Below are positions 58,726-63,326 of a DNA stretch of 64,000 nt, one piece after another. Location: positions 1,054,001 to 1,118,000 of the forward strand of contig NZ_AP021861.1 of assembly GCF_009177095.1 (NCBI RefSeq). The letters run 5' to 3'. The translations under genes and the position numbers were made by a program. The notes under the pieces are model-generated. The model had not been told where the DNA came from. It saw only the letters and a program-made list of their open reading frames with translations, and did not search any database. Each line of letters starts with the position of its first letter. Position 1 is the first letter of the stretch. The stretch comes from Lacipirellula parvula (GTDB lineage Bacteria; Planctomycetota; Planctomycetia; Pirellulales; Lacipirellulaceae).

Positions 58726-59364
58726 ATGGAACGCGAGTTTGCGAGCGACGTGGCGTTCACCCCAGCGGTGAAGGCGATTCAGGAGGCGAAGGGGTCGCGG
58801 CGAAGCTACGCGCGGATGGAGCAGAGCGGCGGGTGGCAGACGACGGTGACGCCCGACCTCGTCGAGTATCTGGCCGACCTCGACATGTTTTATCTCGGGA
58901 CCGCGAACGCCGCGGGGCAGCCGTACATTCAGTACCGCGGTGGGCCGCCGGGGTTTTTGAAGGCGATCGACGAGCAGACGCTGGGCTTCGCCGACTTCGG
59001 CGGCAATCGGCAGTACATCACGCTGGGGAATCTCGCGGAGAATCCGCATGCGTTTTTGTTTCTGATGGATTACGCGAACAGCCGACGGGTGAAAGTGTGG
59101 GGCACGGCACGGGTGGTCGAAGGGGACGCGGCGCTGGAGAAGCGGCTTGCCGATCCGGCATATCCGGGGCGCGTCGAGCGGGTGATTTTGTTCACGCTCG
59201 AGGCGTGGGACGTGAACTGCCCGCAGCATATTCATCCGCGGTATTCGCAGCGGCAGATCGCTCCGGTGATTGAGCAACTGCAGGGGGAGATCGCGGAGTT
59301 GAAGGCGGAGGTGGAGCGGTTGCGCGGGGAGAACCAACAAAATCTTGAGGTTCCCTCCCCTTGA
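58726..59364 (+). CDS. pyridoxamine 5'-phosphate oxidase-like flavin-binding protein
   Basis: 212 residues. Residues ~35-170 form a PNPOx-like split barrel: SGGWQTTVTPDLVEYLADLD, MFYLGTANAAGQPYIQYRGG, LGFADFGGNRQYITLGNLA, HAFLFLMDYANSRRVKVWGT and WDVNCPQHIHPRYS. Residues ~175-205 are a short coiled coil (QLQGEIAELKAEVERLRGEN). The last residues NLEVPSP and the TGA stop (59362-59364) are read from inside a palindromic repeat, so the C-terminus is determined by that element. The protein probably binds FMN or a related cofactor and may reduce a small oxidant; the exact reaction is not clear. It is in an operon with the upstream hydrolase. Confidence 0.85.
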   Translation: MEREFASDVAFTPAVKAIQEAKGSRRSYARMEQSGGWQTTVTPDLVEYLADLDMFYLGTANAAGQPYIQYRGGPPGFLKAIDEQTLGFADFGGNRQYITLGNLAENPHAFLFLMDYANSRRVKVWGTARVVEGDAALEKRLADPAYPGRVERVILFTLEAWDVNCPQHIHPRYSQRQIAPVIEQLQGEIAELKAEVERLRGENQQNLEVPSP

Positions 59365-59502
59365 GGGGGAGGGTTAGGGAGGGGTGAAAGAAGTGGGTAC
59401 CAGTGTTCCACCCCCTCCCCAGCCCTGTGCTACGCACGGACTACCGCCTGCGCTCGATCGCCACTGGCGATCGTGCTCGTTGCTCCCTCAAGGGGGAGGG
59501 AG
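59351..59502. repeat. ~95 bp palindromic element, copy 1, with a 58 bp nested insert
   Basis: Terminal palindromes (ccctcccc-type, 59353-59373 and ~59485-59502) flank a core containing ttagggaggggtg, ggtaccag and accccctccccagccct. The core matches copy 2 (60540-60634) read on the other strand. About 59427-59484 is extra sequence absent from copy 2, and contains its own palindrome gatcgcca / c / tggcgatc. The element supplies the stop of the PNPOx-like gene. Confidence 0.85.
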
Positions 59503-59542
59503 CCTCAGCATTTCTCTCGCGCGAGAAGGGGGCGAGCGACGC

Positions 59543-60334
59543 TTAGATCACTTGCACCGGATCGCGTTCGCTGCGGCTGGCCCAGACGTGGGCGTCGGAG
59601 AATTGGTCGGTGAGGTAGTCGGCGAGCGACAGCAGCGCGAAGCGTTCGCTGGCGAAGTGGCCGGTGAGAATGAGGCCGACTTCGCGGGCTTCGGCTTCGA
59701 GGATCGTGTGGAACGTCGCTTCGCCGGTGACGAGGACGTCGCACTCGGCGGCGATCGCGGCGTCGAGGAACGAACCGCCGCTGCCGCAGGCGATCGCCAC
59801 GCGGACAATGGGCGCCTCGGCGGGGCCGGCGAGCTTGACGCTTTCGACGTTCAGAAAACCCTTCGTCCGTTCGGCGAGTTCGCGGCGCGTGAGCGGTTCG
59901 CCGATGAGGCCGCAGCGGCCGGAGCCTTCTTCGGGGTCGCCGCTGAGGGCGGGCTTCAGCGGGGCGATTTCTTGCAGGCCGAGGCCGATGGCGAGGTGCT
60001 GATTGATGCCGGCCGAGGCGGAGTCGAATGCCGTGTGCGGGCTGTAGACGGCGATCGAGTTGCGGATGAGGTCGAGCAGCAGGCCGCCGACGGTGGTGTC
60101 GGGGGTGATTGTGCGGACCGGTTGGAAGGGGAGCGGGTGGTGCGCGACGATGAGGTTCGCACGTTGCTCGATCGCTTCCTTCACCGTGGCGGGGGTGACG
60201 GTGAGGCAGGTCATCACGCGGGCGGCGGGCCAAGCGGCGTCGCCGACGAGCAAGCCGACGTTGTCCCACGACTCGGCGAGTTCGAGGGGAGCGAGCTGCT
60301 TGAGGACTTGGGCGATGTCACCGACCGTCGGCAT
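59543..60334 (-). CDS. Nif3-like dinuclear metal-centre protein
   Basis: 263 residues from the ATG at 60334, with AGGAAAG upstream. The family (Nif3/YbgI, GTP cyclohydrolase 1 type 2-like) forms hexameric rings with two metal ions per subunit. Signatures: PLELAESWDNVGLLVGD, LTVTPATVKEAIEQRANLIV, AHHPLPFQPVRTI with the metal-binding HH, AVYSPHTAFDSASAGINQHL and, near the C-terminus, DVLVTGEATFHTILEAE and LTGHFASERFALLSLADYL. It is flanked on both sides by copies of the same ~95 bp repeat in opposite orientation. Its function is unsettled; it is not obviously linked to its neighbours. Confidence 0.9.
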   Translation of the reverse strand: MPTVGDIAQVLKQLAPLELAESWDNVGLLVGDAAWPAARVMTCLTVTPATVKEAIEQRANLIVAHHPLPFQPVRTITPDTTVGGLLLDLIRNSIAVYSPHTAFDSASAGINQHLAIGLGLQEIAPLKPALSGDPEEGSGRCGLIGEPLTRRELAERTKGFLNVESVKLAGPAEAPIVRVAIACGSGGSFLDAAIAAECDVLVTGEATFHTILEAEAREVGLILTGHFASERFALLSLADYLTDQFSDAHVWASRSERDPVQVI

Positions 60335-60677
60335 GGCGGCTTTCCTGGAATTGGCTTTCGTGCTGCTAAGAATTTGAACCGCCAAGGACGCCAAGGGACG
60401 CCGAGGAATACGGGGATTTTAGCATGATTGCGTTGGGGGGACGACCGGCGCGTTTGCTGGGAGCTTGAGCGCCCCGTTTTATTACTGCGTGAAGCGGGAA
60501 CTGGTGGCCGCTTGAGCATCACCGCGGTGAATATTCTGGCTCCCTCCCCCTTGAGGGGAGGGCTGGGGAGGGGGTAGATCGCTGGTACCCGCTGCCGTCA
60601 CCCCTCCCTAACCCTCCCCCTCGAGGGGAGGGGAACTCAACAATTCGTTTTCAGTGGGGCTTCGGCAGAGTCCGCGG
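60335..60677. other. repeat-bearing spacer, no gene seen
   Basis: 343 bp between two leftward genes. It contains the second ~95 bp element (60540-60634) and, near 60375-60410, a G/A-rich stretch (ccgccaaggacgccaaggga) of a type that I believe is dispersed in such genomes, present once here. No other structure stands out. Confidence 0.5.
60540..60634. repeat. ~95 bp palindromic element, copy 2, intact
   Basis: Reverse complement of the element at 59351-59502 without its nested insert. Terminal palindromes ctccctccccc/ttgaggggaggg and ccctccccctcgaggggagggg flank the shared core. It lies 43 bp after the stop of the large secreted protein gene and 205 bp 5' of the Nif3-like gene. Confidence 0.85.
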
Positions 60678-63326
60678 CTATTGTTCCACCTTGAACCGGT
60701 GGTTGAGGACTCGCGAGCCGTCGTTTTCTTGGGCGCGGAGCCAGAACTCGGCGCCGATGAGGTCTTTGCCGTCGGGGTAGCGGTAAATTTTGATGTCGGG
60801 GCTTTCGCCGAGGCGGGTGACTTGGGCCCGTTGGCGGCGGCGGCCGGGGGCGTAGAGCTGGCACTTGAAGTCGGCCTGCTCGGGGTTGTAGTTCACCATC
60901 CGCTGCTCGACCACCAGCGTGCCGTCTTCTTCGAGGCGCGTGTAGGTGTCGAGTTCGAGCTGGTCGTCGCCGACCTTGAGGTCGCGGTAGACGCTGAAGC
61001 GGTACTGGCGGTCGGCGTCGACGATGAAGTCGATCCGCACGGTGGAGAGCCCGCCGCTGGCGTCGAACGGCAGCGTTACTTGGATTGGCTTCGCAAAAGT
61101 TTCGCCGGCGGCGAGTTTGAAGTCGCTGCGACCGGGGGTGATTTGCCAGCCTTCGGGGCCGGTGATTTCAATCGTGCCGCTGACGCCCTGCGGGAACGAG
61201 TTGTGGAGGTTCAGCTTGTTGTTGTGGGCCGAACCGAACACGCTGGGGATGTTCTTCGCCGCGAAGCTGGTGTCCATCCGCCACTTGGCGATCGCGGGGT
61301 TGATGCCGAGGACGAACCGCGGCAGGCGGTCGACGGCGATCACTTGCGCTTCGCCGCGGCCGGCAGGGAGTTGCTCGCGGCCCCAGACGTCGAGGACGCG
61401 GAGATCGTCGCCGAGGTAGGCTTCCTCTTCGCAAGGTTCGTCGCCCCAGACGACCATCATGAATTCGCCGGAGGCCATTTCGAAGATGCGGTTGTGGCTG
61501 CCGTTCGGCAAGTCGATGTGGCCGATGAACTTGGCGCCGCCGAGGAGCGACGCGGTGGTGCGCCAGGGGAGGAAGAGGTCGGTCGGCGTGCCGGCGTCGC
61601 TCATCAGGCCTTGTTGATCGTCGAACGGCCGGGCGACGAAGATGCCGTCGGCGGCGTTGATTTTGGCGGCGAGCATTTGCTCGACGAGATCGCGGGCGCG
61701 AGTTTCGAGGCCGTACTGCTCGCGCGACAGCGGTTCGACGAGCACCCAGCGGCGCATGCCGGTGCGGCTGGGTTCTTCGAGGTACGCGGCGAGTTCGGGG
61801 CCGGTGAGCGACGGCGTGGCGCTCATTTGCTCGAAGCTCCAGGGGAGCTGGCCGGTGGCGATTGTTTCTTGCGTCCACTCCCAGCCGAGGCCGAGGTTTA
61901 CCTCCTGGCCGAAGCGGAAGAGCTTTTCGCGGAGGTCGAGCACTTTGGCTTGCAGGCCGGGTTCGGCGGAGAGGCTGGGGTCGTCGTCGGCGCCGAGTTG
62001 CCACCAGCGGACGCGCATCGAGAGCCGCGTGAGGACCGGGTCGAGCAGCGGCAGCCAGACGGAGGAATCGACGGCGAAGGTGTCGGCAATCGCGGCGTCG
62101 CCGCTGAGGCGGCGGGCGAATTCTGAGTTTCCGGGGGGGCGATCGAGCACGCCAACCGATTCGACGTCGGCGGCGGCGAGGCGTTCGATCAGCATCACCA
62201 GTTCGTCGCCGCGGCGGGCGTCGGCGGGGTCGTACCAGACCGGCAGCTTCACCCAATTGATGGCGGCCTGCGGCAGCAGCTTCGCGAGGTCGTCGAATTT
62301 GAGCGGGATCTCGTCGCCGGCGAGCGACCAGCCGAACTCGCCCCCTTCGGGACGCGCGAGCGGCGGGGCGACGACGATGTTGATCAAGTCCTGTTTGAGC
62401 AACCCCTGATCGGTCGCCATCGAGACGCGGACTTTGTAGAAGCCATGCTTGCGGATCGGCGGCTTCCAGACGGTGCGGCCGGCGTAGGCGGTGCGCTCGC
62501 CGCCGTTCGATTCGACGATTTCCGACGCTTTGCTGCGGCGCTCGGTGATCAGGCGGCCTTCGAACTGCACGCGGCTGCCATCGAGGCGTTGGCTGCTCGC
62601 GTCGAGGAGTTCAAACAAGATGTCGGGGTCGCTGTCCATGATGCCCGAGAGGTCGCAAAGAACTTCGACCTCTTCGGGGCTGGAGTAAACGTTGAAGGCG
62701 CTGTTGCTGCCGATCGTCATCCGCGGGAGTCGGCCGAGCCAGACGTTCGCGAGCGACGCTTCGCCGGAGAGGTCGGTGAGGGCGCCTGGTTCGACGACGA
62801 GCGCGACGCGGGCGAGTTGCACGCGCGGGTCGGTCGGGCTGACGGGGCCTAGGTTGCAGTCGACCCAGCCGTCGGTGTTCCGGAACCATGGGCCTTCGAC
62901 GGTTTCGATGACTTGCTTTTGGTCGTCGCAGAACTCGACGCGCAGCTGCACGCGGGAATGTTGCAGGCCGCGGACGCGGAGCTGCGATTCGACTTTGTAG
63001 CCGAAGGTTTCAGAGACTGATCCGCAGGGGCTGAGGAGCATCGCTCCGCCGCCGTTCACCTTGACGGTGAGGCAGTTGCCGCCGGGGGCGGTGGGGTCGG
63101 CGACGAGGCCGGCCTCGATGTACTTGGGCATGCCAGCGCCGAAGACGCGCTGCCAGCGATCGGGCCAGCGGTCGTAGTTCAGATCCCAGCCGGGGCCGAA
63201 GTCGCAAGCAAAGACCTCGACTGTGTCGGGGTGACGCGACTGGGTCGCGGTCGAGTCCTGCGGTGCCGCTTGGGTCGCAGTCGAGCCCAGAAGGGCTAGA
63301 ATCAGCAGTGAGGAAAGCGGCGACAT
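60678..63326 (-). CDS. large secreted protein of unknown function
   Basis: 882 residues. A Sec signal (LLILALLGSTATQA) is followed by a short Thr/Gln repeat (STATQAAPQ and STATQSRHP, encoded by near-identical DNA). Residues ~40-300 look like beta-sandwich modules (DFGPGWDLNYDRWPDRWQRV, FGYKVESQLRVRGLQHS, GWVDCNLGPVSPTDPRV). Residues ~320-660 may form an alpha/beta barrel (NWVKLPVWYDPADAR, GVLDRPPGNSEFAR, WWQLGADDDPSL, GLGWEWTQETI), and the last ~200 are beta-rich again. The domain order suggests a carbohydrate-active enzyme or a scaffold, but I cannot place it in a family or see a proven catalytic pair. It is divergent from the last gene, with 21 bp between starts. Confidence 0.75.
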   Translation of the reverse strand: MSPLSSLLILALLGSTATQAAPQDSTATQSRHPDTVEVFACDFGPGWDLNYDRWPDRWQRVFGAGMPKYIEAGLVADPTAPGGNCLTVKVNGGGAMLLSPCGSVSETFGYKVESQLRVRGLQHSRVQLRVEFCDDQKQVIETVEGPWFRNTDGWVDCNLGPVSPTDPRVQLARVALVVEPGALTDLSGEASLANVWLGRLPRMTIGSNSAFNVYSSPEEVEVLCDLSGIMDSDPDILFELLDASSQRLDGSRVQFEGRLITERRSKASEIVESNGGERTAYAGRTVWKPPIRKHGFYKVRVSMATDQGLLKQDLINIVVAPPLARPEGGEFGWSLAGDEIPLKFDDLAKLLPQAAINWVKLPVWYDPADARRGDELVMLIERLAAADVESVGVLDRPPGNSEFARRLSGDAAIADTFAVDSSVWLPLLDPVLTRLSMRVRWWQLGADDDPSLSAEPGLQAKVLDLREKLFRFGQEVNLGLGWEWTQETIATGQLPWSFEQMSATPSLTGPELAAYLEEPSRTGMRRWVLVEPLSREQYGLETRARDLVEQMLAAKINAADGIFVARPFDDQQGLMSDAGTPTDLFLPWRTTASLLGGAKFIGHIDLPNGSHNRIFEMASGEFMMVVWGDEPCEEEAYLGDDLRVLDVWGREQLPAGRGEAQVIAVDRLPRFVLGINPAIAKWRMDTSFAAKNIPSVFGSAHNNKLNLHNSFPQGVSGTIEITGPEGWQITPGRSDFKLAAGETFAKPIQVTLPFDASGGLSTVRIDFIVDADRQYRFSVYRDLKVGDDQLELDTYTRLEEDGTLVVEQRMVNYNPEQADFKCQLYAPGRRRQRAQVTRLGESPDIKIYRYPDGKDLIGAEFWLRAQENDGSRVLNHRFKVEQ

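Follow-up and report, generated by a model that had tools for sequence, protein, structure and literature searches.

What kind of repeat stands twice, in opposite orientation, around a NIF3-like gene of Lacipirellula parvula, and how did it come to lie there? The window, the whole stretch of 64,000 nucleotides analysed here, covers positions 1054001-1118000 of the single-contig chromosome of 6,922,258 bases. A first-pass annotation of its sequence had described a palindrome-capped unit of ~95 bp in two opposite copies, one of them carrying a nested palindromic insert, and had likened it to a MITE or REP-type element. Sequence comparison bears out the opposite orientation and the full-length alignment once 59427-59482/84 is skipped: inverted repeat I1 pairs 59336-59426 with 60559-60649 (91 nt, 86% complementary) and I2 pairs 59485-59504 with 60538-60557 (20 nt, 100%), leaving copy 1 with a surplus of 56-58 bp relative to copy 2 at 59427-59482/84. 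The palindrome described within this surplus was likewise recovered, with arms at 59452-59463 and 59465-59476. Allowing up to 3 mismatches, the window has four matches to the end palindrome (one position matching on both strands), and 100 shuffles have none. The features of the locus are as follows.

58726..59364, + strand: PNPOx-type flavoprotein gene, with its stop codon inside the first hairpin of copy 1
59341..59515, + strand: copy 1, composite, with type A arm, centre and module-split type B arm (from sequence comparison)
59353..59386, + strand: type A arm of copy 1, candidate class II triplex motif made of one pyrimidine stem and then two purine stems, with TTA as the loop before the last
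59410..59426, - strand: inner part of the copy 1 type B arm (third stem and loop); no triplex motif found on this arm
59427..59482, + strand: 56-bp module (the ~58-bp insert of the first-pass annotation), with 12 genome copies and one junction
59452..59476, no strand: palindrome within the module (I7)
59483..59504, - strand: outer hairpin part of the copy 1 type B arm
59543..60394, - strand: NIF3/DUF34 gene, in convergent orientation to the PNPOx-type gene; position of its start codon not fixed
60530..60649, - strand: copy 2, uninterrupted, conserved ends included
60542..60574, + strand: copy 2 type B arm, its motif reading on this strand
60599..60632, - strand: type A arm of copy 2
60678..63326, - strand: large ORF of 882 aa, whose sole Pfam match, NPCBM_assoc, is below cut-off (23.4 of 24.4 bits)

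Copy 2 is located past the 3' end of the 882-aa ORF. A comparison with Rfam gave 30 weak matches at E<=1, all under gathering scores; 28 were microRNA families, and they were discounted because a C/G-rich hairpin attracts such families.

A census of the chromosome revealed a high-copy repeat that occupies many unrelated loci, in most cases directly after genes, and is scarce in congeners. The core of the A arm, at up to 3 mismatches, is found at 182 sites (94 + 88) against 3 for the reversed-pattern control, and the complete two-arm pattern occurs exactly at 109 sites (54 + 55) against 0, contradicting the possibility, raised in the first-pass annotation, that the element is absent elsewhere in the genome. 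We read 386,542 bases, comprising the window and stretches around listed sites; pairing played no part in the choice of most of these loci, which were found through the A core or through resemblance to copy 1, and copies with a degraded core are under-represented among them. The stretches contain 109 A arms, part of the 182 sites, 98 in copies without the module and 11 in copies with it, and a B arm is present beside all 109. One of the 98 module-free copies has a different centre insert and another a short internal duplication. Because every A arm read is paired, the A+B pair is probably the unit of dispersal. Pairing is not absolute, since two B arms lack an intact A arm (one of 102 uninterrupted B arms, at 1650974, has only a truncated A arm; at L014, a twelfth module copy, the B arm is visible with no recognisable A arm) and since 6 of 88 A arms in the 80 loci listed from other bacteria (see below) have no B arm within 60 nt.

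What is repeated is a two-arm unit. Alignment of the 98 module-free copies, a comparison that the first-pass annotation had proposed, showed an abundant repeat with conserved ends, AACCnTGAGG on the left and ACAnCATT on the right, beyond the outer hairpins; the ends are mutually inverted (AACCnTGAGG and CCACAACATT). The length of ~95 bp first described thus holds for the repeated core, and because of these ends the conserved unit measures ~115 bp. The left flank of the element is A-rich and the right flank T-rich. In each unit two arms face each other as an inverted pair, type A with the loop TTA and type B with the loop CTG, and each arm runs from a pyrimidine stem through a short loop, a purine stem and a second short loop to a mirror-image purine stem, which is the grammar of a class II intrastrand triplex. 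We re-implemented the triplex rule of PMC4666352 (here with stems of at least 8, loops of 1-6, at most 1 mismatch); A arms satisfied it in 98/98 copies, a score helped, like the conservation of the A stems, by selection on the A core, and B arms in 95/98, compared with 0/490 mononucleotide-shuffled arms of each type. Core length is 94 bp in 49 of the 98 copies; there the cores share a mean pairwise identity of 0.907, and the third-strand stems are as conserved (0.985 and 0.994) as the hairpin stems (0.968-0.998), with values of 0.83 in the centre and 0.76-0.80 at the ends. By their sequence grammar, the arms are candidate class II intrastrand DNA-triplex motifs. As RNA, the long hairpin is predicted to fold strongly (z -4.1 to -5.0). 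As DNA, copy 2 favours local hairpins on one strand (-28.0 kcal/mol) and one long hairpin on the other (-28.7), so folding energies do not separate the two forms.

The 56-bp module of copy 1 recurs in 12 element copies, 8 times in the B arm and 4 times in the A arm, always at one junction, between the CCC beside the inner loop and the outer-hairpin TCCC; in copy 1 it breaks the B-arm triplex motif. Query positions 22-68 of 68 (21-68 at one locus) also occur at 5 loci that lack the remainder of the element, and this standalone unit begins at (G)GACTACCGCC and continues into a pyrimidine/purine hairpin of its own or a remnant of one. The centres of 102 of the 109 copies were readable (7 were dropped), and those of the 11 module copies tested were no more alike than random sets (7 B-arm copies, 1655/2000; 4 A-arm copies, 587/2000), so that by their centres these 11 do not form one lineage. 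The module would therefore be explained better if a second hairpin repeat had joined repeatedly at the shared hairpin than by a single nesting event followed by spread. The insert first reported as nested is thus real and palindromic; it is not a one-off, being found at one junction in either arm of 12 copies, of which the 11 compared by their centres do not form one lineage.

Several observations accompany the module. Loci L043-L047 carry a second repeat family, GACTACCGCC...GTTGCTCCC with a terminal hairpin, and in G052, a genome of another family of the order, two loci match part of the module. An element at G000:C1:6653531-6653667 has a different centre insert of ~58 bp, by eye unrelated to the module. 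A short palindrome, CCCCGGGCGGAGCCCGGGGCTAG, recurs near the element in intergenic DNA, for example in the flanks at G000:C1:1299010 and 1664341.

To place the element relative to genes, the 98 module-free copies were positioned among genes called by a home-made codon-usage caller. They fell into 41 convergent, 47 tandem and 2 divergent gaps, with 5 inside called ORFs and 3 at stretch edges. Element-free gaps of at least 100 bp in the same stretches, which are not a random genome sample because the stretches were chosen for having copies, comprised 13 convergent, 43 tandem and 22 divergent cases. The convergent-to-divergent ratio of 41:2 against 13:22 gives a Fisher p of 2.7e-8 (6.8e-9 with a wider gap set of 19 and 29). 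Copies in tandem gaps are nearer the end of the upstream gene in 40/47 cases, at a median of 35 bp versus 130 bp to the next start. Orientation showed no bias relative to tandem genes (21 same, 26 opposite) or to the replication strand (best two-arc orientation split 33, matched by 104/1000 permutations). Besides the PNPOx-type gene, which stops within copy 1 at window position 59364, five gene ends lie inside the 98 module-free elements; here the element provides the stop region of neighbouring gene calls.

Relatives were then compared for the insertion sites. Copy 2 is absent between NIF3 and its neighbour in 5/5 congeners, in which both flanking genes align. A clean empty site, which the first-pass annotation had suggested looking for, is not seen in any relative fetched, the intergenic stretches being otherwise too diverged for a footprint. 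For the site of copy 1, blastn gave no trace of the PNPOx-type gene beside NIF3 in the five congeners, in one of which the contig ends there. Exact pairs number 0-8 in congeners, several of whose assemblies are incomplete, compared with 109 here, and the exact pair pattern occurs in 7/43 genomes of the family, this genome included.

How the element reached these sites can be weighed against four alternatives. That the two copies are a single local segmental duplication followed by a later insertion fits their separation of ~1.2 kb, and is refuted as nearly as can be by the census, with >100 copies elsewhere, and by the homology, which stops at the element ends and leaves the Nif3 gene outside, at odds with one duplicated block including flanking DNA. 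The likeness to MITEs or REP-type elements holds insofar as the element is dispersed, palindromic and mobile-looking with inverted ends. A REP/BIME system, paired palindromes mobilised by a RAYT of this genome, would also suit an intergenic, paired element that makes no target duplication, and the chromosome has four Y1 transposase loci (PF01797, over the Pfam cut-off), of which NCBIfam places two as IS200-type over its cut-off (one partial) and two as RAYT-like below it. A search of this family for the transposase with matching ends that the first-pass annotation had envisaged found the element within 1.5 kb of 0/4 loci, a result that leaves room for a RAYT without flanking copies; three of the loci (L147, L149, L150) are by eye flanked by other palindromes, a pattern for facing GTAG palindromes gave 0 matches, and GTAG/CGTC tags are scarcer beside the element (9/98 copies) than in control flanks (35/98). 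We regard REP/BIME mobilisation as unlikely. At L147 (G000:C1:2345680-2349021), the IS200-type Y1 transposase gene lies by eye between dnaK-like and clpB-like genes, with inverted GTAGCCAGGGGC...GCCCCTGGCTAC palindromes on either side of it; this makes a REP-like unit that has a transposase of its own. The RAYT-like genes at L149 and L150 each lie by eye between copies of a different palindrome of their own, and the chromosome therefore seems to hold several REP families.

Inverted ends, a defined length and >100 copies would equally be expected of a classical MITE, derived from an insertion sequence with a DDE transposase and terminal inverted repeats. This is rather improbable given that target-site duplications, also suggested by the first-pass annotation as a trait to look for, did not stand out in the 98 copies at the offsets tested (duplication lengths k of 2 to 12 and offsets of 0 to 24 on either side; highest z 3.1 in 6,875 combinations), and that the own-genome loci read contain no autonomous transposon with these ends and, since every A arm read has a B arm close by, no long-parent candidate. 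A retained functional 3'-end element, acting under selection as a bidirectional terminator or mRNA stabiliser, would account for the strong placement at gene 3' ends, the A-rich and T-rich flanks and the very stable predicted RNA hairpin. Promoter avoidance explains the position equally well, however, a terminator scan found no terminator-like site at copy 1 or copy 2 (both sites found lie elsewhere), the element is missing at the Nif3 locus of all five congeners, and E. coli PIT elements have no terminator activity according to earlier work cited in PMC4666352. Selected 3'-end function is thus a possible but unlikely explanation.

Relatives of the two-arm unit were sought with a degenerate A-plus-inverted-B pattern in a bacterial contig collection, which returned at least 119 stretches; 80 loci were listed and read, and they contain 82 A/B pairs. 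One of them, L157, has an A arm with its B arm 306 nt away. Among the matches listed, record titles include many Pseudomonadota isolates, and labels of metagenome-assembled genomes, which can be wrong, name Planctomycetota, Chloroflexi, Acidobacteria, Armatimonadetes, Cytophagales and Deltaproteobacteria. Pair strings at L196 and L229 (Pirellulales bacterium GZL_ISSM_2_bin.79) are identical to those of congener G005. A long exact pattern had 0 matches in this collection, from which the L. parvula genome was possibly left out. Judging from these matches, the A/B architecture also occurs in other bacteria, including some outside Proteobacteria.

The closest described counterpart is the paired form of the E. 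coli BoxC/PIT/TM_ECO repeats (Holder et al. 2015, PMC4666352), for which CD and NMR are given there as showing triplex formation by oligonucleotides; in its Table 1, all five MG1655 pairs are one A and one inverted B. The TM_ECO consensus CCCTCNCCCN3-6GGGNGAGGGN3GGGNGAGGG, which the E. coli hrpB-mrcB pair fits on both strands, fits 0/98 copies here on either strand; among the listed loci from other bacteria, whose stretches were cut 45 nt out and in some cases at locus ends, it fits 38/82 (A strand) and 33/82 (B strand) of the pairs. Because the element is built like the paired BoxC repeats but differs in its stems and fails this consensus, it is, on sequence criteria, a planctomycete variant of these triplex repeats and not TM_ECO proper.

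E. coli strains were compared at the five pair loci. Query coverage of at least 80% was found in 5371, 2752, 3018, 3728 and 3511 of 5,426 complete E. coli genomes, although the first locus reaches 82% query coverage even in strains that lack the pair. Fourteen alleles, picked from listings and not a count, were fetched, and 12 (all except L285 and L293) were aligned. At hrpB-mrcB, the MG1655 allele is 103 bp longer than those of aligned strains without the pair (106 for the third of these three, which also has a 3-bp change in the gene), and where the pair would stand, the pair-less alleles have ~11 different bases, with no target duplication. An internal deletion leaving a single hairpin was seen in one hrpB-mrcB strain, and a similar one in an alx-sstT strain. 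At other loci the pair is replaced by larger blocks or other sequence, and lldD-trmL may keep part of an arm. The 12 aligned alleles contain no clean insertion footprint; what they document is that the pair is gained or lost and that hairpin-linked deletions occur, rather than any insertion mechanism. In E. coli C43(DE3) (L292), a perfect inverted repeat, in which CTGTCTCTTGATCAG and its complement enclose 5 bases, stands at lldD-trmL beside the remaining triplex arm, where MG1655 has other sequence; it resembles Tn5/IS50 ends.

We consider it reasonably probable that the element belongs with BoxC/PIT/TM as a planctomycete variant, a dispersed repeat without autonomy of its own in which two intrastrand-triplex motifs, A and B, face each other as an inverted pair, and that it spreads as one DNA unit. 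Spread would proceed through a single-stranded, hairpin-dependent step without target duplication, with either a trans-acting enzyme of HUH/Y1-like type or template switching at stalled replication forks as the candidate agent. Copies landing in promoters would be removed, leaving survivors at gene 3' ends, and recombination or template switching at the shared CCC/TCCC hairpin would add a second hairpin repeat, giving composites such as copy 1. Several results count against dispersal as a triplex-motif pair: none of the four Y1 loci has the element, so no mobilising enzyme is linked to it; strong RNA hairpin folding is also predicted by a transcript-level role; DNA folding does not separate the two forms; some arms read are unpaired; and neither the aligned E. 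coli alleles nor the relatives fetched offer a clean insertion footprint or empty site. A wider proposal, which we offer tentatively and think doubtful, is that the inverted A/B triplex pairs of E. coli, planctomycetes and other phyla form one ancient or horizontally spreading mobile superfamily, in which a dedicated enzyme recognising the folded triplex or hairpin would move the pair and modules would recombine at the shared hairpin.

In the open-access literature searched, no report of this planctomycete variant was found, and "intrastrand triplex" together with "planctomycet" had no match. Among the matches listed for CCCTCTCCC, no title concerned bacterial repeats; the relevant match by title for TTAGGGTGAGGG was PMC4666352, and the part of that paper covered here offers no explanation of how BoxC/triplex repeats spread. 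With REP/BIME sequences and their RAYT, the element shares intergenic paired palindromes and the lack of target duplication, but it differs in having no GTAG/CGTC tag, no adjoining RAYT and arms of mirror-symmetric purine tracts. Like MITEs it is short, non-coding and of high copy number with inverted ends, but there is no target duplication and no parent transposon in the stretches read. Rhizobial RIME-type mosaic repeats are also similar in form, with about 108 bp and two large palindromes, and are set apart by description, their sequence being different. The paired BoxC/PIT/TM_ECO repeats, as far as PMC4666352 describes them, have in common with the element a class II triplex motif with an A arm of loop TTA and a type B arm, A facing inverted B, an intergenic location and polymorphism between strains. 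Their stems are 9-nt, compared with CCCTCCCC/GGGGAGGG here, and they occur more often upstream of ORFs, at no fixed distance, whereas the present element favours gene 3' ends, has far more copies, longer conserved ends and composite copies, and is paired at every A arm read. With more than 100 similar two-arm units, of which almost all are paired, most lie at gene 3' ends and some are composite, this chromosome makes a much richer system than the five pairs of E. coli, useful in the search for the mobilising enzyme and in tests of triplex-linked instability, and an A/B architecture beyond Proteobacteria widens the question of how triplex repeats spread.
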